From the NCBI GenBank assembly GCA_033439255.1, contig CM065880.1:1922001-1986000 (forward strand): 64,000 nucleotides of DNA, read 5' to 3'. The notes beneath the pieces were generated by a model. The model was not told the DNA's origin, did not search any database, and worked only from the letters and a program-made list of their open reading frames with translations. The stretch's first letter is position 1, and the number at the start of each line of letters is the position of its first letter. The position numbers were made by a program, and so were the translations under genes. Below, one piece after another: positions 35,501 through 52,474 of this stretch. The stretch is from Hericium rajendrae. Lineage: Eukaryota > Basidiomycota > Agaricomycetes > Russulales > Hericiaceae.

Positions 35501-38500
35501 GGAAAGATCTCGGAACTCCGGATATGCTGTATCCAGTCGTTGGCAGAAGCCTGAGATGGACTCTTGGACAACGTGCTCGCGCATGCTGGCAGCTGCGTCT
35601 CCGCTCTTTATGAGATTGAGCAGGGCATTGAGTTTCGCCGTTGCTACCACCGCCGATAAGAACTGTGAGACCTCGGCCCAGAATGCGGTGAGACGAGAGG
35701 CATCACGCCTGCAGTCCTTTGAAATAGGAGGAATCCCGTTCAGGTGACCTTGAGCGTCCTCTAGCCCTTGTCGAAGGTACTCGGTCATGCCGTTTCTCAT
35801 TTCGCCTGTCTCTCGGACCTCCAGTTCAGAATGAAGGCGAAGTTCTTCTGCAATACGTGCTTGCTCTCCATTCCAGAAATCTGCTGCGCATTGTTGATTT
35901 GCCGATGGATCAACAAGTGTGTTCGGAACGTAAAGTTCGATGAAGAACTGAGCGATGCAAATCAAGAAGTGACCTATAGCTAGCACAGCGTCAGATTCAG
36001 AAGCGGATGAATCAAGGAGTGCCGAGGATGCTCCCAATAGTTGCATGGAGGTAGAGCTGAACTGCGGATGACTCGACTCTTGGAGTAGATTTACGAGTTC
36101 GGAGAAAGAGTACAATCGACGGAACTCCTGCGTGGCTTGCTGGAGTTTGGTTCGTGTGGTCTCTTTGAACGAGTCAAGGAAGCATGACGATAACTAATGA
36201 AATCATCAACCTCCACAGGCAGAATAGATTATAATGTGAATCTTACAGTCAACAGGGTCTGGTAACAGAAAGAGACAAGTTCTTCGCTACGTGACACTTG
36301 CGATCCTGACGCCATCAGGATGAATTTCGCATGACGGTGAAGATCGGATTGGTACCGCTTTGAAGATCGAAGGGTGACATTTGTCCAATCACTACGCATG
36401 CATGTTAAAATTAGTCGTTCTTTTTGCGACGAAGTGCTCACCACTTCGCTACGGTCAGTAGGAGTTGAGTTGGCTCTATCAGAAAAACCGGACCATGTAA
36501 AGCGTCGACGTTCCAAAGCGCCCGTAGCCATGAAATTTGCAGTGCAGCTACGGTCATTGTCGTCACTATATTGGACATCCATTTACGATAATTAATCAAC
36601 GAATCTTTCAGATTGACGTACATTTCCCAGCTTCGACCTCCCACACCGCGTGGCGATAGGGAATGAAACGCGCAAGTGGACCCTCTGGATCCTGACAGGC
36701 GGCATCAAGCAGAAGAGCGATATCCTTGTGACGCAAGATGTGAGTTTGAGTGGAAACTGTGAAGAGATTGTCAATTTACCGTGACGTTGTCTTGTTGTCC
36801 TACATGGAGTCTCGCGAGCACACTAAGCTCTCTGACCAAAAGCATGCGATCATCCTTGAGGTGATTTGACTGGACAACACTTTCATGCGAAGATTCAATT
36901 AACCGCTAGGATATAAGCTATCAGCCGCAGCTCTGAGAAGCGGAAGAATGAGAATCACCTTTCTTATGTCTTCGATCGTTACTTCCAACGTGTGACCACT
37001 GTCATCGTCTGTCTTGGGCAGAGCGTCGAGTGCCAATAGATCAACGACGTGACCACGAAGTTCTATAAATAGGTCAGTCGCTATACTTCTTTTATGAACA
37101 GGAGAGACCCACGATATATACGGCTTTCGGCTGCTGAGTTGATGGCCAATGCCTCCAACTGTAGCAAACATGGAGAAGGAGCGGCGCTTGAGGATCGGAA
37201 ACTAGCCCATATTTCTCCTAATCCTAACCCGGAAGTAGGTGTGACTAATCGCTGCAATGATTCGACCTTTTCTCTGACAAACAGAAGAGAATCAGGGACA
37301 TCGCGGAGACCCTCGAGCATCCATCCTGTTACAACTTGGATGATGCAAATGTTGAAGCCATGAACGCAACTGTTGTATAAGAACCTGGCAAGCTTGTGTA
37401 ATCTCAGAGCGAATGAAATTTCATCCTTGGAAATGGTAATTAGGACGGACGAATGCATCATACCAAGAAAGTAACTCACCCAACCATTCTCTTGTAGTTC
37501 TTGTGTCTTACGCTCGACCGTATCGGAACCCACTTGATGAATAGACGCCACCACATCGTCAGCGATCTTGATCGCTTGCCGCAGGATTGGTGAATCGTCG
37601 TCCTTCATTCTGCCTGTAGCGGAGGAGAGCGGGTTGAGGAGCATATGTTCAAGATGACGATCAATGGTCAGTCTTACAAAAAGTTCGAGAATGCGTAAAA
37701 ATGCTGATGGCATGGAGGGACGGCCAATGTCATAAGACAACTTGGCAATGTTCATGGTCATTACGAAGAAACCCAGGGGCTGAATATATTAGATAGCACT
37801 ATTCAGTACATATAATATCCCAACAGCTGCGAGGCGCGCCGATAATTGAACACTGACCTGGAATGGCAAAAGATCAGCAGACATCGGCGATACTTGTTCA
37901 AACTGATGTCGTATCTGATCCAGCTGGTGGAACGAGATACTCTTCTCCGAAGCCTCCAAGACCATACTTAGAGACTCAAGATGCGGAGAGGTCGATGTTC
38001 GAAAGTCAGACAGGAAGCGGCAAAGACGATGGATATATTTGGGAGCGATAGAAGCCATGGCAAAGTGAAGGCTAGCATCGCGAACTGGCTCAGGCATCGG
38101 GGTTAGCAGCAGCGGCACCAGATTTGCAATTGCGGAAGACGACGAATCTTGTATGATGGCATATCCGGACGGCTCGACTGTCCTCACAGAAAGATGCTGT
38201 GGGTTAATCAAGCCCCTGCGGCTGAGCTCGAAGTGGACGACAAGGTTCTCAAAAGGCTGCCTAGCAAGGGTGGATGGCAAACGCAGATAGTCTTGTATCC
38301 GATCGACATCTTGTACGGTCCAGTGGTCGTCTAAGGAAATTTCGATGCCGCGATTGCGCATGGCACGAGACAACTCGCCATGTTGTGGATCAATAGACAT
38401 GAAAAGTCGGAAATCTGGATGCGGTGTCACAACAGGCACATTACCATCAACATGACCACGCTCATTCAATATGAGTGAACCCGAAGGCTCGCACAATGAA

Positions 38501-41500
38501 TTAAGCCGATCGAGTACGGACGGACTGCAAAGATTGGCGTCGTCAAGAAGGAGCCAGTGTCCTTCTTTCAATGCCCGCACCAGAGGGCCATCGACCCATT
38601 CAAATTTACCCTCTGTTTGCGACCTTGCAAGTTCTTGTTGGATCTGACTGAGAAGATGATCTCTTTCCCTCATTTGTTCGGTATCTAGAGTTGCCAAGTC
38701 ATCTAGGCGCTGGACAACTGCCTCTACGTTCTTGAGACCTGAGAGCAAGTGGGCGTGACTTGATGTGAGGACCTCCAAGAAAGACACATCGACCAGTTCT
38801 CCCATTTTCGAACCTTGAATTGAGCGTGATATAGGTTCGATCAGAGCAATAGCACGCTGAACGAGGTCAATCCATCGGCCACTGGCATCTACCTGCTCAA
38901 ATGTGCCCAGTAGATCCATCGTGTCTGTACCGCTGTTGATGGAAACCTCGTGCAATATGTTGCCTGTGAGATCAGCCATTGTCCGCACCAGACTAGTCTT
39001 ACCGCTATCATGGCGACCGGTCAAAATGACCAGAGAGCCATGTTGAATAGCCACGCCTATAGCCTCCGCGGCCCGGAGGTGCACTTGAAGAAGACGACCT
39101 GACCGTGATGCGCTGGAATAGTTTCTTCTTGAATCAACGAAATGGCCCACTTGCATGTACGATGGCGATATTGAGGGGTGAGGTGGTAAAGCTAGTTTCG
39201 TGTCCTGCGTATTGAATGCTTGATCGAACAGGTCTTGTGCGGATTGACGGTCTTGTGCAGTCCGGAACCTTGCAAGATATACGTTGTATAGATGCTCAAC
39301 TGGATGAAGAGATCGAGCAGATGTTCGGAGCAGCTCGATCCAACGAGACACATCCCGTAGATTGAATTCCCACGGACTGCCAGCCCTCCCAAAGAATTTT
39401 CTCGTGACGGTTTCCCACTCAAGGCGGCTGTTGTAATCGATCATCCTCTGAAGCCAGTCAACGGGGTACTCGGGGAAAGCATGTCGAAATATCTGGAGGA
39501 GATCGGCCGAATCCAAAGCCTGCACGTAGACCCGGGAGAAGCGGTTCACAAACGATTTCGGTAAGCCTTTGCGCCCACCACCTTGTTGAATTGGGTTTTG
39601 CGCAGCGAAGACGCGAAATGATGGGTGGCAAGTAAACGAGCGTCCAAGTTCTGGGACGTATACTGTTCCACGATGGTCAAGAACAGCGTTGAGGCCCTCC
39701 AAAACGGCTTGAGGTGCAAGATTCATCTCGTCCAGGAGAACCCAATGTCCCTGTTGAAGAGCCGTTAGGAACTCGGCATCCTTCCAGGCGAACTCGTTTG
39801 ATCCACCGCCTTCTACTGGCAAATCCGAGCCGAACAAGTCAGCCAATTCGGTCTGATCTGACAAATTGATACGGCAAAGGTGGTAACCGCAGATATTGGC
39901 AAGCGCCTTGACAAGACTGGTCTTTCCGACACCTGGACTGCCCTCGAGCAATATTGGTTTTGTCACCTGGCATGCCCTGATAACGCGGACTGCATTTTCG
40001 CGCGTGGTAGGTGCATCAAGGTTGTAGGTATCCATGGTATGCGCCTGCGGTCCTCGAGGCACGGCGAACACACCTAGCTGTACGAAACGAGAGGAATCGT
40101 GCACGGGTACTATTGTTGTACCGTCATCAGCGGGAAGGGGCGCAAGTTCTTGGAGCTTATTGATTGCATCGTTTCGTAAGGATTGCAATGCTTCAGAGGA
40201 GTAGCTTGACAATTGCGGCAGAGAACCGAGACCGTCGAGGCACGTCATATATGCCCCGTGATGCTGCAGTGACGGAATCAGCAAGGGGCGATGTATGAAA
40301 CGGCGCGTCGAACTCACGAATATCTCATTCAGGTGCATACTCTTCATGGCCTCAGACGATACAACAGAGTTGGAAAAGTCTACCCAGGCCTAATTTTCAG
40401 GTCAGTGTTTAACATCGCGTACTAGCGATGGCAAGCGTACCAGGATATCTCTCAAGCCAAGGAGGTGTCGCTCCTGCACTCGAGTATGTAACCACTGATA
40501 AAATTCCAGTAGGCGTCCGGTATATGCTTTGAGACTTTTATGTCGCCAACTGGAAGCTATGATCTGCTCGATGTCCGAAAGATTATCAATGGCAGGGACC
40601 CATATCTCGGTGAACCGATTTCGCAGCGCAGGAGACAATTCCTTCTTCCCGAAATCGCCACCTGGGTTCATAGTTACGAGCTGGAATCCAGGACTGGCAC
40701 GGATGACGGAATCTTCGGAGCTCTCGCCTCCGCGTTCCGCGAGTACGACCGTGCGGGCGGGCTCTAGGACGCTATTTAAGCGCTCCAGGACTGAGTCGTC
40801 AGCCAATGAGATTTCGTCGAGGAGAAAGACTTCGCCAGACTGCATAGCTTCCACCAATGGGCCGTCGCGCCAGTCAAAAAGTGCAGAGGCCCGGTGCAAT
40901 CGCTGCTGAACGTCTTTGACACGACTGCTCAAAGCAGGAATCGCAGCAGCTAGTTTTCCGAGCAACGACAGCAACGCTTCAGATCCGCTCCCTGTGTCCG
41001 TGATACCGTGCTCTGCAAGTAGCGTCGTTGCCTCTTGACAAGCCTCGGAGATCATCGCCGCTCTATCACGAATGGGACGAAGACCTCCAATAAGATCCGC
41101 AGTTTCTGTGTTTTGATGACAGTTAACAGCGATAAGCCGTCTCTTCACCGCGTCGGCATATATTTGGCATACAGACGTCTTCCCAGTGCCAGTCTCGCCA
41201 ACGAGCAAGACAGGCTCGTTGAAGCGCAAAGCACGACCGACCAGGACAAGAACGCGCTGCATGGCTTGGGTCCACACTATGTCGGATGTCTGCGGTACGG
41301 TGAAGCCCAACAATGACAGAACGTCGACCCCAGAACGATGGAAATCGTAAATTGAGCTCTCGTCGATTTTGACCTTCATGACGGACTCGATGACCTCTTT
41401 GACCACAGCTTTATCATCTTCCCGGCGAGCACGCTCTGCCAAAAGCATGTACCCGTTTTCGGCCAGTTCCTGGTAGCCAACTGCATCTCGACCGGCCCAT

Positions 41501-44500
41501 CGAAAGAGGTCACGCAAGGTCGCGAAACCATGCTTGCTCTCAAAGACGCGGCTTGCCTGACGTCGTTTCTGCAGCTCACGGAAGACCTCGACGATGCGGT
41601 GACCATATGACGGAGCGATTCTGCAGCGCTGACAAAGAATTGTTTCCAGCTCGGCTTGAGGCACGTCCTCGAAATGAACCTCGAGGAACCGATTGCGGAA
41701 TGCGCGTGACAAGACCTTCCGTCCAGCGTAAAGACCGGGAGGATTCTGCGTCGCGAAAAGGACGAAATGAGGGTGAGGCCGTACAACTTCTTGCGTTTCG
41801 GGGATGACCAGCTCGCGATTGTCATCCAGTAGGCGGTTAAGAGCTTCAAGAACGTCGGTTGGCGCAAGATTGAGCTCATCTAAAACGATCCAATCTCCGT
41901 TCCGCAGCGTCTGAACCAGCAAACCATCTTTGAAGTTGAGCTTCCCCGTGATAGGGTCAGAAACGTACGTCCCGAGGTACTCTTGGATATCTGTATGCTC
42001 GTGATTATTGATGCGCACGAAGCGATGTCCCGTCCTCTTCGCAAGATATTCAATGGAACTTGTCTTTCCGGCCGATGTTGGACCTTCAATCAGAACTGGG
42101 AAACGTCGCGTCAGAATGATGCGAGCAAGATCAATCAGTTTCTTCTCGACAGAGGGCGTCATAACATAGTCATCCATTGGCTCCGATGGCAGAGGACCCT
42201 TCTCAAGGTAAAAAGGGCCGAACTTGACAAAATCGTCGGGTGAACCAGATATAGGAGTTGATGGTTCTCTGGCAAGCAGCGATCTAGGGTTCCGCACGCC
42301 GGCCAAGATACGTTTCCGAGCGAGAGCGGTTACCACTTCCGCACTGGGACCATCGAGGACCATCGTGAACGCCATCAAGAAACTTTCCCAGAGAGCTCTC
42401 CTAAGACTGTAGGCGCCAGCGATTTCCGCGGCAAACGTCAGAGCGCGCGTCAGCGTCCGCATACTGAAATGGGGGCGATGATTTGCACCGTCAGCTATTT
42501 GCCTTGTTTCGGCCAGGTGCTTGACGGCTGTGTAGAATTCTGCGATGTCCATGATAGCCGCCTTGTCACCTACTGCAGATGCGCCGATGTACTGGTGGAC
42601 AATGCTCAGTAAAGTCTCCTTGTCTGCATCGGGAGGAGGCACATCAATCTCTGTGAAGCGAGAGCGAACGTTTGGAGGCAGGTCCTTCTTGCCGATATCC
42701 GTTGCTGGATTCATACAAGCGAAGAGACGGAAGTCAGGATGGCGGGGAACAGGCTCCAATGAACCCTGTTCTGTTAACGTTATCGAAGCGGTTGGACTAT
42801 GGAGTAAATTGGACACGGCCTCCAGGGTTTCGGGGCTAGCCAGGTTAATCTCGTCCAACAGAACCCTATGCGCAAAATGTAAAGACGTGAATCAAGTGCT
42901 ATAACGAAAATTCTCACCAGTCGCCGGAGCGCAATGCCTTTACAACTGGACCTTCCACAAAGCTGAATGCGAGCTTGCTCTTGCCTTGCACGTGCTGAAC
43001 TTCGAAGCTGCCTATGGCCTGCTCAAAAGCCAACCAGCTATCAAGCGACACGCGAAGATGATCTGTCTTTCGACGCTTTCGAGGTGCATCCGAGTCCAGC
43101 TCCTCTTTCCTTCCATCGGACCTGCGATTCCAAAGTCAGGTTTACGATCGAAGTGGCTGCATCTCAACTTACTCCGACGACTCAGCCAATTTAGCCTCGA
43201 TTCTTTCCTTCGCCAACCTCACGCTTTCTCTCCACAAACCAACGGCCCGCTTCCACTTCCCCTCCTGGACGGCTCTCCTCACCGACTCCTCAAATCTTGC
43301 ATTCTTCTTCTGACTGAATGTACCCCGGAACAGCTCCAAGAATTGTGCCTGAAGGCCTGAGCCAGGAACACGCGCGTCGACGGGCTTGAATCCACCGAGC
43401 AAGTCTGAAGACTCGCTCTGTTGTGAGAGGTTAAGTGAGATGAGCGGGCGATGAAGAAGTGCAGCCATGTGCGTCACTAGGCTCGTCTTCCCTGTACCTG
43501 TCTCTCCCGTAAGAAGGATAGGTTCCGAAAGCGAGAGGGCCGTGGCAATACGTGACATGAGGATAATTGCTGGGCGATGCATGGCGAAGGGTCGCGCCGA
43601 CGACAGCGGGGCAATCTCGGACTTGGTGCTCCGGGCTGGCAGCCTAATGCGTCCGACACGTAGAGCAGTCGTGCGACCATTGACATCTTTCTCGACTTCG
43701 AATTCGGGTACACGACCCGTCAAGACCCAGTCACGCTGTTGAGGAGACAGCCCCATGTGCTCCGCCGCGACAGCAGCGACAGCCTCCGCGTGCGCGGTCG
43801 CAGCTGTTGTAAGAGTCCCCGAACCAAAGAATACGTCCCGCGCCTCAAAGTACATTTCCTCACGCAGCGTGGGATTCGAAAATGTGACGGGCAGTATGAA
43901 AGGTCCGTCGGACGACAGATCGATGTCCATGGGCTGATAAGATGGTGGCAGAAGAGCGTCGACACGCGAGCAGAATTTCTCCAGTTCACGGAGGCCAATC
44001 TGTCGACTTGAGGGTGCAACGCCGAGGCTCTTGATTGCTTCCCACAATTTGATTGTGCCTAATACAGCAGAACCAGCGAGCTTCGGGAATTTGAATTCAA
44101 GGATCAGACGCAGCTCCTCGGAACTTGGAGATGGCACCACGACCTCATGGAACTTGTGCGATCCAAAGAATGTAGGTTTCGGGAAAACACCACTCCTCGA
44201 TGGAATAAGTGATCTGGTGGCGAAGACAGCGAAGCTCTCTGCGGCGATGACAGTCCCTCGAGTGGGGATAGTCAATCTGGCACGACCGCCTATCCATTTG
44301 TCGAGACCCATTGATTGTATGAGGGGTTTGATCGTTCCAAGGACTTCATTGCTGCCACGATCGATATCTTCAAAAACAATCCATTTGCCTTCGCGCATTG
44401 CCCGCACGAGCACACCTTCCTTCCACTCGAAAGTTCCGGGGCTTGTAGGAGAAGAGACATAGGACCCTAGCAAAGACCGAGGATCAAGTGATGTGTCCGC

Positions 44501-45652
44501 TAGAGCAATAGTGATGATTTGGTTCTTCGTGCCCGGATGGAGCAATCCGGCTAGGTGGGACAGTAGCAACGACTTGCCAGCCGAAGGAGCGGAAGTCAGA
44601 AGGACGGGAAGGCGCAGAGAGTTGTGCACTGCCAAGGCACGGAGGGCTGCAATTGATGTAGTTGTTGGAATCAACTCTGATATTCGCGTTTCCGGGCTAG
44701 AAGGTCGGAACAAAAGGATACCGTGGTTATTGACGATGGAAGAACTGAAAACGTCGTCAGTAAAATTTAATGATAAATAAATGACAGACGAACCATAGAT
44801 CGCTTTCCGCAACCTGAACGCTACCGTCTGCGGCGAAATAATGCAAGACGTCTGAAGTGGCTAAGTTCCTTTTCTCCCAGATCCTCCTCGACTCTACGAT
44901 AGGCAATATCCAGCCGTCAACGCTCTTGAAAGTGCCCTGGATATCTTCTCCGTATTGAATAGGACAGCCAACATCAGTCTCTAGGCCAACTATTTCCTTC
45001 TCAAGCTTATCCCTTTCCCCTTCTCCCATTCCACTCTGCGAAGCATAGCAGCGTATAGCGAGGTATCGAACACCAGGATCGGGATGTGATTCCCAAAAAA
45101 GCTTTGATAAGGGGGATAGCGACCAATGAAAGTGATGAGGTAATTCACGGTTTGCTTGTAGAATGCGATAATAAGCAAGAAGCGAACGGTGTAATGTAGG
45201 CGCGTCGATGGCGTTCGGCGTGTCTGACTCCAAGACGAATGTCAACGGCCCTGTACGTGGGATGTATTGGCGAATGAGTTCCGACAGAATGCTATAGGTG
45301 TATCTGTCAGTCTTTTGCGAAGAGTGCAGAACAGACGTGCGTACGGATACAGTTCTTCGTGAGGCTGCAAGAGGAGACATAGAGCCTCAAACTTTTGATG
45401 GATCTGGTCGTTGTTCTCCAATAACCGCGCACAAATATCAAGCAAGACTGGTCTGAACGTGAGTGCGATAGCTTCGGTCAATGAGGGCACGATTATAAGC
45501 TGTGATAAAATAGCCAGTGCTTTGCGACCGGAGGTCGCCTTTTGTATCGCAGAGACATGCGGTGAATCCTGCGGCAATTGAGCAATCAGAGTAGATATCT
45601 GACGCTGCAAGTCGACGGCCAGCGGGTTTTGGATGGTATTGAAGGGAGACAT
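29525..45652 (-). CDS. MDN1: Midasin, giant AAA+ ATPase of 60S ribosome assembly
   Basis: One gene spanning about 16 kb with many short introns, encoding roughly 5000 aa, the normal midasin size. The start is the ATG of MSPFNTIQNPL (45652) and the stop is TAA at 29527-29525. Six AAA+ P-loops appear in order: TSAPSAGKS (about 44,590), GETGTGKTS (43,490), GPTSAGKTS (42,070), GETGTGKTS (41,190), GSPGVGKTS (39,930), GRHDSGKTS (39,000). Walker B-type segments follow, e.g. WVLLDEMNLAPQ and EVFLLDEISLAD. A long helical linker (about 39-32.8 kb) and an Asp/Glu-rich region (about 32.2-31.2 kb) lead to the C-terminal MIDAS domain with D-x-S-x-S (LIALDDSRSM, near 30,190) and LEIIISDGICQDHDK. Midasin uses ATP hydrolysis and the MIDAS domain to pull Ytm1 and Rsa4 off pre-60S particles in the nucleolus and nucleoplasm. 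Exact exon borders in the linker (36.1-37.8 kb) were not all resolved. Confidence 0.95.
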
Positions 45653-47108: not shown

Positions 47109-50100
47109 ATGGGATCCCCCATTCCTAACGTCAATGCTGGGAGCGGAAGTGTTCCCGGCTCATTGCAAGATGCTCATGATGCGGCTGGTGCTTGGTTTGT
47201 GGGTCCCAAGGCCGAGAATGGCGCTTACCTCAAGAAGTACGTCGAGAGAATCCTCGACGACCTCATCCAGTGCAGGAAAGACTTCTTCCCAGATGATAAA
47301 GTTTGTACTCACTTTTCATAGCTTGACTACGTTTCTGACTGACATGGATCCTCAGGATTTCATAGACGAAGCAACTGTCGCATCGCCGGCGTTCAGAACG
47401 AGCATGTCCAAGCTCGAGACAAACATCAACTTTCTTTCTTCATTTCTCCCTCAGCACAGTATTCCTTTCTTTTCTCCTCGATATATGGCCCACATGCTGA
47501 ACGACGTCTCAATGCCCGCGACTCTTGGCTATCTTTTGGCGTTGATGTACAACCCGAACAATGTCGCCGTGGAGGGCAGCCCACTGACTAGTATCATCGA
47601 ATTTGACGTTGGGCAACAGTTGTGCGCCATGCTTGGTTTTGACGTACGCGGCGCTCAAGATGATACCTCGGGACCATCTCCTTGGGGTCACATCACATGC
47701 GACGGCTCTGTGGCGAATTTGGAGTCTATGTGGTACGGCATTCGTCCTTCAGCTTACCCGTAATGCATGTACTCACTTCATTCCTGTAGGGTCGGTCAGT
47801 CGTACAAGCATACTAGCACGTCCTCTTTGACTTATTATATTTTGCCCAGCACGTAATTTGAAGTTCTACCCGTTGTCCCTACGGCGCGCCATAAACTCGG
47901 AGGCGGCGTTGACATTCGTGGGGTCACATCTCCAGGTGAACCTGTGTTCCGGTCGACGAAAGGCCTTCCTGGACTGCAGCACCTGGGATCTCCTCAACCT
48001 TACAGCTGACGAGGTCGTGGGCTTACCAAATCGTATTACTGCCGAGTTCGGAGTATCGCCTCAGGCTCTACAGAACATCATCAGCAAGTATCTCATCCAG
48101 ACGACAGGAAAAGAAGAACTCGAGGCGTATTTCGGCATACAACAGCCCGCGCAATTTTTGGTCAGCAAAACGACGCATTACTCATGGCCGAAAGGCGCTG
48201 GTAAGTGAATTATGCTGATATCTGCATCGTGCTCTAACATGAAGTCTTCTGCCCAGCAATCACTGGAGTTGGGTCACAGAACCTGATGGCCGTGCCCGTT
48301 GATGACTCGGCGCGCATGGACTGCGAGGCACTGGACACGCTCTTATCCCAATGTCTCCAACGTCGCCAGGCCGTTTACGCCATAGTCGCGGTCATGGGAA
48401 CGACAGAGCACGGCTCGGTCGATCCGCTGTCCAAGATTCTTGTCCTTCGCGAGAAATATCAAAGCCGAGGCCTGTCATTTCTGATCCATGCTGATGCCGC
48501 ATGGGGCGGATACTTCGCTTCCATGCTCGTCCCAAGTCCTGATCGAAACGCCAGCACGAGCGGTCTGGATGACCCTTCACTCTTTGTTAACCCCTACACA
48601 GAACGCGAATTACGTCACCTTCGCTTTGCGGACTCGATCACAATCGATCCTCACAAGAGTGGGTATGTTCCTACCCCAGGCAGGCAGCCTGTGCTATCGC
48701 GATGGCAGGCTGCGCTACCTGGTGACATGGACAAGCCCTGTGATTGACTCGCCTGAGAACGGCGCATCGAGAATGGGTGTCTATGGAATAGAGGGGAGGT
48801 AAGGTCCCATCTCATGCCGCCCATCACTTGTCTGAGCATGTGGAACTGCAGTAAAACGGGCGCGGCGCCTGTATCTGCCTGGCTTGGCCACGAGGTGATT
48901 GGCCTTCACAAAGGAGGCTATGGTTTCCTTCTGGGCGAGGCCATCTTCAGCAGCATCAAGGTGTGATGCATTTCGTCAGGTCATCTACGTACCTCTTACT
49001 GATGGCCCGCTGATAATGACAGATGTACGGTTACTGGGCAACCATGTCTTTGGATCATCCAAATCTCCTTGTTGTTCCATTTCGCATGTTGCCGAGCGAG
49101 AAATCCTCCGACTTCTCGATCCAGGAGGTCGATAAGGAGAGAAGGTACATCCGCGATGTCATCCTTAAGCAGACGCGTCAAGAGCTGGCGAAGGATCCGA
49201 AAGCCAGAGCGCTCATGCAAGAGCTCGGGTCCGATTTGGTCGTCAACGCCTTCGCATGCAATTTCCGCGTCAATGGCATGGTCAATAAAGACATCACGGA
49301 GGCAAACTATCTGAACGCCAGGATCTATGAGAAGCTCTCGCTGCACAAGCTCACGGATCAGCGAAATGATCGCAAGGTCATCATAATGTCGACCATCTTC
49401 TCCCAGAAGGAGTATGGCAGGTGCTTGACAAATTACAAGGAGCGCCTCGGTCTCGTTGGCGACGAGAATCTTTTTGTGCTTGTCAATGTCTCCATGTCTG
49501 TGTTCACGTCGCCTCGCAACTTTGTGAAAGTTTTGGCAGATGGCTTCTTGGAGGCCGCAGAAGAGGAAGTCAAGGTACGCCGTGTTCCGTGTCGCTACAT
49601 CGTCCGGATTTGTCTGACATTCTATCACAGATTTCGATCCAACGCAACCGGATGGTGGCAGCGCTTCATGCATTTATCATTCAGGGTTCTTCTCAAGTCC
49701 ACCTCGTTCACATGCCGTGCTTCGGCAGCGCCAGTCAGCGCCGCCAATGTATCCTCAGTGTGGAGTTATCAGAGTCCGCAAGGCAGGAGTACCTGGATGC
49801 TAGGCATGGTGATCCGAGTGCCGTTTTCATCGCGGCTACTGTTGAAGACGTCGAATTATCCATAATCATCAAGCGCAAATCATTCAGGGTTCTTGTTTCG
49901 AAGCTAACTTCCAAGGGGTAAGAGCCTCTTTCGCAGTACCATCGTCGCTTTCCTTGACTTACTTTCCCCGCTTCAGGCCTGTTCCCATTGTGGAATGCGA
50001 TGTAACGCAGATTCGGGTTGTCAAGAACCGGTCGTTGAGCGCGCGACATCTCGATGGCTCCTACCCGTCTAGAATGCCATTCTATCTCTATGGCACCCTG

Positions 50101-50730
50101 GACGAGATGCACATCGAACACATGCTGCTGCACGCCCCTAACGCCCAGTTGACAGCGAGTGATGTTCACGTCAAAGTGGAGAGCGGAGACAAGACTATAT
50201 TCTCCAACGGCCTGAAGAAGGGTCTCATCGCCGTGATGGACACCCTGCCTGAACATCTCCTGCAGCCCTTCACCGCCGATCACAGACCCAACTTCTTCCG
50301 CGCAGGCGCCAAGATTGGCGCGTCCATATATCATGACCGGCGTAGCTCTCAGGCCCCAGCCGCGGGCATCATGGACGTCTTGGAGAGTCCTATCGCTCGC
50401 GCAACCGTCACGCTGGGCGACAGCATATTCGTCGATTCTGATATGATCAACTTTGACACCCCGATTGTTGCATCGCACGTCCCGAAGAAGAAGATGGTCT
50501 TCACCAAGGGCGATGACTCCGATTCGCAGGACCACCCTATCTTCCGCGGCCACGGTCTGTCACAAACCTCGCCATCTGCCCAGATAGGATGGAGAGATAT
50601 CTGGGATACGGCTCTTGCACAACGTCAATTTTCACAGCTCAAACTCAGCACAGAATCGATCGATAAAGATGACGACTATTGTCCCAGTCCCAACAAACTG
50701 ACAAGCTCCCTCCTGCACATGCACCACTGA
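47109..50730 (+). CDS. PLP-dependent aromatic amino acid decarboxylase-like, long C-terminal extension; apparent frameshift
   Basis: Exons 47109-47300, 47356-47732, 47790-47794 (5 nt), 47850-48200, 48257-48798, 48852-48960, 49023-49574, 49631-49917 and 49977-50730; about 1055 aa. The start ATG has a strong context (CACCATGG). Group II decarboxylase features: ESMWVARNLKFYPLSLR, HADAAWGGYF, and the PLP lysine in TIDPHKSG (codon 48655-48657), then LCYRDGRLRYLVTW and GAAPVSAWLGHEVIGLHKGG. The reading frame shifts by +1 between DPHKSGY and AGSLCYRDG (about 48,667-48,680, at a CCCC run), so the gene is either broken or carries a sequence error. Beyond the decarboxylase fold, about 450 residues (VEEEVKISIQR onward) form an extra C-terminal part, as in non-canonical basidiomycete aromatic amino acid decarboxylases described from Psilocybe. 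Those act on tryptophan, tyrosine or phenylalanine; the substrate here is inferred only. Confidence 0.85.
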
Positions 50731-51251: not shown

Positions 51252-52474
51252 ATGGCGAAGATTCTATCATTACACGGCAAGGGCCTCAAACTGGACACTA
51301 GAGAAGACATCGAGCCTTATCTTCGCGATGTCGACCCCACAAAGCTCGAAGAAATCTGCTTTGGCGGAAACACGATTGGAGTAGAGGCATCACAAGCCCT
51401 GGCGGAATTTTTGCAGAAAGCCACTTCGTTGAAGGTACGCTTGCAAAGCATCTAAACGCGCATTTTGAGCTCACGCGAACTGGCTCCTTATAGGTCGCTG
51501 ATTTTGCCGACATATTCACGGGACGGCTCATCACAGAGATCCCTCAAGCCCTCTCCTCAATCTGCGATGCACTTATCGACAAGACGTCCCTCGTCGAAAT
51601 CGATCTGTCGGACAACGCGTTCGGTGGACGGTCTGTTGACCCCATGGTTCCCTTCCTCACGAAAAACCGGTCGTTCCAGGTGCTTAAGCTGAACAACAAT
51701 GGCTTGGGTCCTGCGGGTGGCTCCATCATTGCAGATGCTCTTCGTCGGTCCGCCGAGCTCAGCAAGGAAGAGGATAAGCAGAGCAACCTCAGAACGGTCA
51801 TCTGCGGACGGAATCGTCTGGAGAACGGGAGTGCCCCTGCATGGGCGGCAGCTTTTGCGGCGCACGGGAACCTCGTCGAGGTGCGCATGCCTCAGAACGG
51901 GATCCGGATGGAGGGCATCACAGCACTCGCTAGAGGGCTGGCAAAGAATCCGAATATCGAATACATCGATCTACAAGATAACGCGTTCGCGCAGGCCGGC
52001 GCGAAGGCGTTCGCAGACGCGCTGCCGAGCTGGCCCAAACTTCACACTCTCAATCTCTCGGACTGCTTCCTTTCGGAAGAGGGCGAGGTGCCGAGCACGC
52101 TCAAGATTCTCGCGACGGGCTCGAATCCTGCCCTTCGCAACCTTCAACTGCAGAACAACAACCTAGAGGGAGATACGGCGGCACTCCTGGCTGACGTGAT
52201 CGGTACCCATCTAAAGGCGGTAGAGCTGCTGGAGTTCCAGTGGAACGAAGCTGACGAGGATGACGAGGGCATTCAGACTTTGGCGGACAGTCTTATGGCG
52301 AGAGGTGGAAAGTTCATCTTGATGGACGAAGAAGAGGAGGAAGTGAAAGAGGAGGGGGTAATAGTGGAGGAGGCGAAGGCTGAGGAGGCGGCGGAGCCGA
52401 CAGAAGAACCTTGTGAAGTCGACCAGGCTACGGAGGCTCTGGCTAATCTCCTGGGCAAGGTGACTATAGACTAA
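51252..52474 (+). CDS. RNA1: Ran GTPase-activating protein RanGAP (Rna1)
   Basis: Exons 51252-51434 and 51494-52474 give 387 aa, matching fission yeast Rna1 (386 aa). Leucine-rich repeats run through most of the protein: IEYIDLQDNAF, LHTLNLSDCFL and LRNLQLQNNNLEGD. The catalytic arginine loop is present as FADIFTGRLITEIP, and CGRNRLENGS is conserved with Rna1. The C-terminus is a Glu-rich acidic tail (EEEEEVKEEGVIVEE), also typical. The protein stimulates GTP hydrolysis by Ran in the cytoplasm, keeping the RanGTP gradient that drives nuclear transport. The gene appears complete and ordinary. Its 3' end faces the SAC3-like gene with 243 bp between stops. Confidence 0.95.

Follow-up and report, generated by a model that had tools for sequence, protein, structure and literature searches.

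The five nucleotides GGTCG at positions 47790-47794 of the window, the 64,000-nt stretch of the Hericium rajendrae genome analysed here (G000:C3:1922001-1986000, from an assembly of 46.8 Mb in 19 contigs), very probably form a real internal coding exon, 5 nt long, in a decarboxylase gene. This exon appears to have been inherited from an ancestor that the gene has in common with a second decarboxylase gene, in which the corresponding exon reads GGCTG. The interpretation had been proposed from the window alone, and it is supported here on two grounds: it provides the best of the splice models that we listed, and the paralogue carries a 5-nt exon that agrees with it in codon position and phases.

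The decarboxylase gene in the window

The gene lies at 47109-50730 on the forward strand. Its catalytic part matches residues 67-447 of PDB 6ebn (E=1.2e-112), which we take to be the calcium-activated enzyme of Psilocybe cubensis (PcncAAAD), and its product scores 58.1 bits against PF00282 (cut-off 27), the PLP decarboxylase catalytic domain. The product also carries TIDPHKSGYV, in which HKSGY / DPHK is presumably the catalytic-lysine motif. A downstream piece, from 48683 through exons 6-9, gives a separate match to residues 452-981 of 6ebn (E=2.8e-106), so that the appended C-terminal domain is also found, though out of frame with the catalytic part as assembled. PcncAAAD is homologous to the window gene over both parts and reads W-A-ARN at the place of the micro-exon; the two proteins are 51% identical (165/322 residues compared), and a difference between them is the frameshift in the assembled window copy. 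These matches identify the product of the window gene as a noncanonical aromatic amino acid decarboxylase (AAAD), with activity and calcium activation predicted at most. The predicted structure of the gene is as follows.

47109-47300, forward strand: exon 1, with a putative start codon; the frame is open into exon 2 once 47301-47355 is removed
47301-47355, forward strand: intron 1, 55 nt, GTTTGT..CCTCAG; the paralogue has an intron at the same position
47356-47732, forward strand: exon 2, ending in phase 2 (ATG TG); letters checked
47733-47789, forward strand: intron 2 (A), 57 nt, GTACGG..CTGTAG; the paralogue counterpart is 58 nt
47790-47794, forward strand: predicted micro-exon GGTCG, 5 nt, which completes W, encodes V and starts A; from splice models and paralogue GGCTG
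47795-47849, forward strand: intron 3 (B), 55 nt, GTCAGT..GCCCAG, with a weak donor; the paralogue counterpart is 67 nt
47850-48200, forward strand: exon 4 (ARNLKFYPL...), from the 6ebn alignment
48257-48798, forward strand: exon 5, holding the HKSGY motif and a one-base frameshift as assembled
48664-48691, forward strand: the one-base frameshift, a short way past HKSGYV, located by anchor spacing against the paralogue
48852-48960, forward strand: exon 6
49023-49574, forward strand: exon 7
49631-49917, forward strand: exon 8
49977-50730, forward strand: exon 9, through the stop codon; part of the 6ebn 452-981 match

Upstream of the decarboxylase gene, large open frames at 37792-44860 on the reverse strand contain AAA_5 and Midasin AAA lid domains and mark a Midasin-like AAA protein gene, and an adjoining open frame at 51494-52471 on the forward strand contains leucine-rich repeats.

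Splice models across the W-x-ARN segment

The end of exon 2 in phase 2 at 47732, the downstream block from 47850 (which begins CACGTAAT / CACGTAATTTGAAG) and the letters and coordinates of GGTCG, with CCTGTAG before it and GTCAGT after it, are all exactly as originally described. Under the proposed mechanism, two short GT-AG introns of 57 and 55 nt would be spliced out around GGTCG, which would complete the Trp codon, supply Val and begin the Ala codon of W-x-ARN, and this arrangement reproduces the MWVARNLKFYP product that had been put forward. It had also been stated that no direct splice keeps the frame. This holds for the donor at 47732, where joining to 47850 and skipping the five nucleotides reads ATG TGC ACG TAA, an immediate stop (...ESMCT*), but it fails for a GC donor at 47738, which joins to 47850 in frame and gives MWYARN.

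To compare these possibilities we listed all combinations of GT or GC donors with AG acceptors in which no intron is shorter than 30 nt, the middle exon is below 40 nt, the first donor lies close to where exon 2 ends and the frame stays open into LKFYPL. In the window, three one-intron models are open and a single one, the 112-nt GC-AG intron, gives W-x-ARN (as MWYARN); among the 52 open two-intron models only the one with GGTCG does so (as MWVARN). The remaining two-intron models (51/52 in the window and 50/51 in the paralogue) were rejected because they fail to give W-x-ARN. The GGTCG model combines a 5-nt length with two flanking introns that carry splice consensus, the second donor being weak, and in the portions of the literature available to us the upper limits for micro-exons run from 27 to 51 nt.

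The W-x-ARN spacing itself is well conserved. A scan of prokaryotic genomes yielded 468 relatives, and in 80/80 of the best 80, chosen by closeness to the query, exactly one residue stands between W and the (A)RN triplet. These 80 rows comprise 79 that were tallied and one (L076) with a WGHL motif; ARN is exact in 72/79 as well as in L076. The residue at x among the 79 tallied from the best 80 of 468 is A in 34, S in 29, M in 12, V in 3 and L in 1, and Tyr occurs in 0/79. The fungal structure 6ebn reads WAARN at the micro-exon place, where the query carried X, and Tyr is present at x in two bacterial PDB chains, 5hsi and 7cwx.

A paralogue in the same genome

In a protein search of the fungus's own genome in which the best candidates were scored, only the window gene and one copy on contig C1 matched. 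This paralogue lies at 1208-1211 kb of G000:C1 on the minus strand and is identical to the window gene at 161/324 residues (50%). For seven of its introns both ends were determined, and a comparison of the two translations puts them at the same places as the first seven introns of the window gene; an eighth donor was seen at the matching place, and the gene is open over the stretch read. At the segment of interest it reads GTGTG, then GTAGGT...ATCCAG (58 nt), GGCTG, GTGTGT...TTGCAG (67 nt) and CTCGTAAT, which gives VWAARN. The GGCTG exon, at G000:C1:1210649-1210645, has the codon position and phase of the window exon and so provides conservation in a diverged copy, a property that supports a micro-exon without strictly defining one. 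None of the paralogue's 13 one-intron models and 1 of its 51 two-intron models gives W-x-ARN, so that the count among the 63 others is zero. Three further PF00282 matches are present in the genome, at C7:1349423-1350338, C13:1067191-1068554 and C15:141507-142730, and no relative turned up when viral contigs were scanned once with the protein of the paralogue's exon 4.

At DNA level the comparison covers a pair of fungal gene copies that belong to a single genome. In global alignment, intron A of the window and its paralogue counterpart have an identity of 0.62, with a score reached by 21% of 300 shuffles and hence a similarity not beyond chance, while intron B has an identity of 0.58, with a score reached by 1.7% of 300 shuffles, which makes its similarity weak. 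Skipping of the micro-exon in the paralogue reads GTG TGC TCG TAA, again an immediate stop. Because skipping yields TAA in both copies, inclusion would be the productive form, and the reading frame suggests that it is constitutive. Introns A and B, both short, are presumably recognised by intron definition, and they are likely to be removed one after the other, as a 5-nt exon offers little space for factors to sit at both of its ends simultaneously.

Chance and splice-site quality

To gauge how often such an arrangement arises by chance, the outer splice sites were kept and the interior was dinucleotide-shuffled 20,000 times for each copy, and a solution was counted if its exon was at most 30 nt and its introns 45-80 nt. 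When W-x-ARN was not demanded, an in-frame micro-exon of some kind turned up in 6224/20,000 shuffles of the window copy and 5768/20,000 of the paralogue, so an in-frame micro-exon is weak evidence by itself. A solution that gives W-x-ARN was found in 52/20,000 and 28/20,000 shuffles, respectively. The W-x-ARN match is strong evidence, and its occurrence at the same place and with the same length in both copies is stronger.

The flanking introns were compared with 13 others from both genes, including the two beside the paralogue's micro-exon; the site scores come from a matrix built on these same 13 introns, so the comparison scores are flattered. The comparison introns are 50-69 nt long, a range that contains introns A (57 nt) and B (55 nt). 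The donor of intron A scores 6.1, within the comparison range of 5.3-11.6 and above 1/13, and 3.5% of the window's GT dinucleotides reach such a score; its acceptor scores 4.4, within the range of 2.6-8.6 and also above 1/13. The acceptor of intron B scores 5.6 and beats 4/13, and its donor GTCAGT, at 2.15, is below 13/13 comparison donors and equalled by 14% of GT dinucleotides in the window. This donor (47795-47800) is the lowest of the window gene's eight, and its paralogue counterpart is GTGTGT.

The weakness of one of the two donors that a micro-exon needs is one reason to weigh the GC-AG model mentioned above. Here a single 112-nt intron at 47738-47849 (donor GCATTC) would join 47737 to 47850, with the junction reading ATGTGGTACG-CACGT, and GGTCG would be plain intron sequence. 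The product, MWYARN, is in frame and leaves one residue between W and ARN, and that residue, Tyr, has the precedent of the two bacterial chains; it is nevertheless absent from the tallied prokaryotic relatives, where Val was counted three times. GCATTC has neither the good donor consensus nor the intron the usual length of a GC-AG intron: the donor scores -5.9 (-2.1 without the GC position) against 5.3-11.6 for the 13 comparison donors, each of them a GT, and a length of 112 nt is well beyond the range of 50-69 nt. GC-AG introns are also rare in fungi, at 1.009% in the part of PMC7072748 available to us. Finally, the same reading is closed in the paralogue, where it runs TGG TAG and none of the one-intron models gives W-x-ARN. 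We therefore consider the GC-AG intron very unlikely.

A frameshift in the window copy

As assembled, the window copy contains a one-base frameshift. From the start of the anchor CACAAGAG (48652) to that of TGCTATCGC (48692) there are 40 nt in the window gene versus 39 in the paralogue, and the frame ends 25 codons past HKSGYV. Once four more introns are taken out, the downstream frame runs open as far as a stop at 50728-50730. As a remedy, very small introns of 17-25 nt (GTATGT..CAG) were considered by eye and rejected, as they are well under the shortest measured intron (50 nt) and would delete conserved residues. The frameshift implies that the window copy may be decaying or wrongly assembled, and it may represent either an assembly error or a recent loss.

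Since one frameshift is present at 48664-48691, a second sequencing or decay artefact might be suspected at the micro-exon, in which case an indel would have disrupted a single-intron gene and GGTCG would be a chance match. This is more improbable still than the GC-AG intron: the paralogue, whose frame is open wherever it was read, independently has the same 5-nt solution, chance solutions with W-x-ARN are as infrequent as the shuffles indicate, and a single intron of 117 nt is out of line with the other intron lengths. A twin intron (stwintron), in which a nested pair is removed in two steps and no exon is left, has been described in filamentous fungi in the available parts of PMC12403724 and PMC9024468, but it is barely credible here, as taking out 47733-47849 in one piece leads to a stop and 0/13 open contiguous GT/GC-AG removals in the paralogue give W-x-ARN.

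Ultra-short exons in other genes

A 5-nt constitutive exon had been called unusually small, a fair description, although there are precedents. From the sections available of the sources cited here, RNA-seq-based annotation of Cryptococcus neoformans includes exons down to 1 bp (PMC3990503), and the shortest exon of the Phanerochaete chrysosporium P450 genes is 6 bp (PMC1184071). These basidiomycete cases resemble the predicted GGTCG exon in being tiny internal exons between short introns, and the same sections make no mention of the decarboxylase gene. In other kingdoms, as far as the accessible text goes, Arabidopsis APC11 has a constitutive 1-nt exon (PMC4674806), conserved plant micro-exons of up to 15 nt include a 5-nt exon in rice (PMC8831610), and Drosophila Ubx has two 5-nt exons (PMC8042270); these are likewise ultra-short, the plant ones being demonstrated at the RNA level while the window exon is predicted from sequence. 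The Trichoderma Xlr2 micro-exon is also from a filamentous fungus but, according to the part of PMC11121469 available, is 20 nt long and acts as a glucose-dependent switch.

Among the titles and abstract openings that the literature search covered, none reports a micro-exon in this decarboxylase family, and the word "intron" is absent from the main text of PMC13062060 as far as it was accessible. Ultra-short exons are thus already known, and the decarboxylase case looks new as far as those titles and abstract openings go.

Probable age and significance of the predicted micro-exon

To place the two copies, a tree was built from 23 rows, namely three fungal sequences and, as outgroup, 20 of the 78 usable prokaryotic rows. 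The three fungal rows fall together with 97/98 support, in a tree whose bootstrap had not settled. Within them the paralogue groups with 6ebn and the window copy stands apart (98/94 support, under the same unsettled bootstrap and with one very long prokaryotic row). Should this grouping be correct, the gene was duplicated before the Psilocybe cubensis enzyme split off, and the micro-exon present in both copies would likewise be older than that split. The micro-exon therefore probably has such an age, a dating drawn from three fungal rows, and if the tree is right the Psilocybe cubensis gene would be expected to have the 5-nt exon or to have undergone secondary intron loss. A bolder proposal, which we regard as rather unlikely, is that the 5-nt exon is ancient in mushroom noncanonical AAAD genes, predating the split of the Psilocybe lineage, and that its skipping could serve as an off-switch governed by splicing efficiency; the idea of a switch comes from the immediate TAA that skipping would place inside the W-x-ARN segment in both copies.

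Plant micro-exons such as those of PMC4674806 and PMC8831610 are often overlooked by annotation, and the available parts of PMC8831610 and PMC8042270 describe small micro-exons as easily missed in both annotation and read mapping. As a 5-nt exon is so easily missed, the annotation of decarboxylase genes in this group may be wrong around W-x-ARN, with frameshifts, spurious GC introns and truncated proteins as possible outcomes. That two copies with 50% identity share the predicted exon suggests that in an intron-dense fungus a 5-nt exon can be held in frame over the long term.
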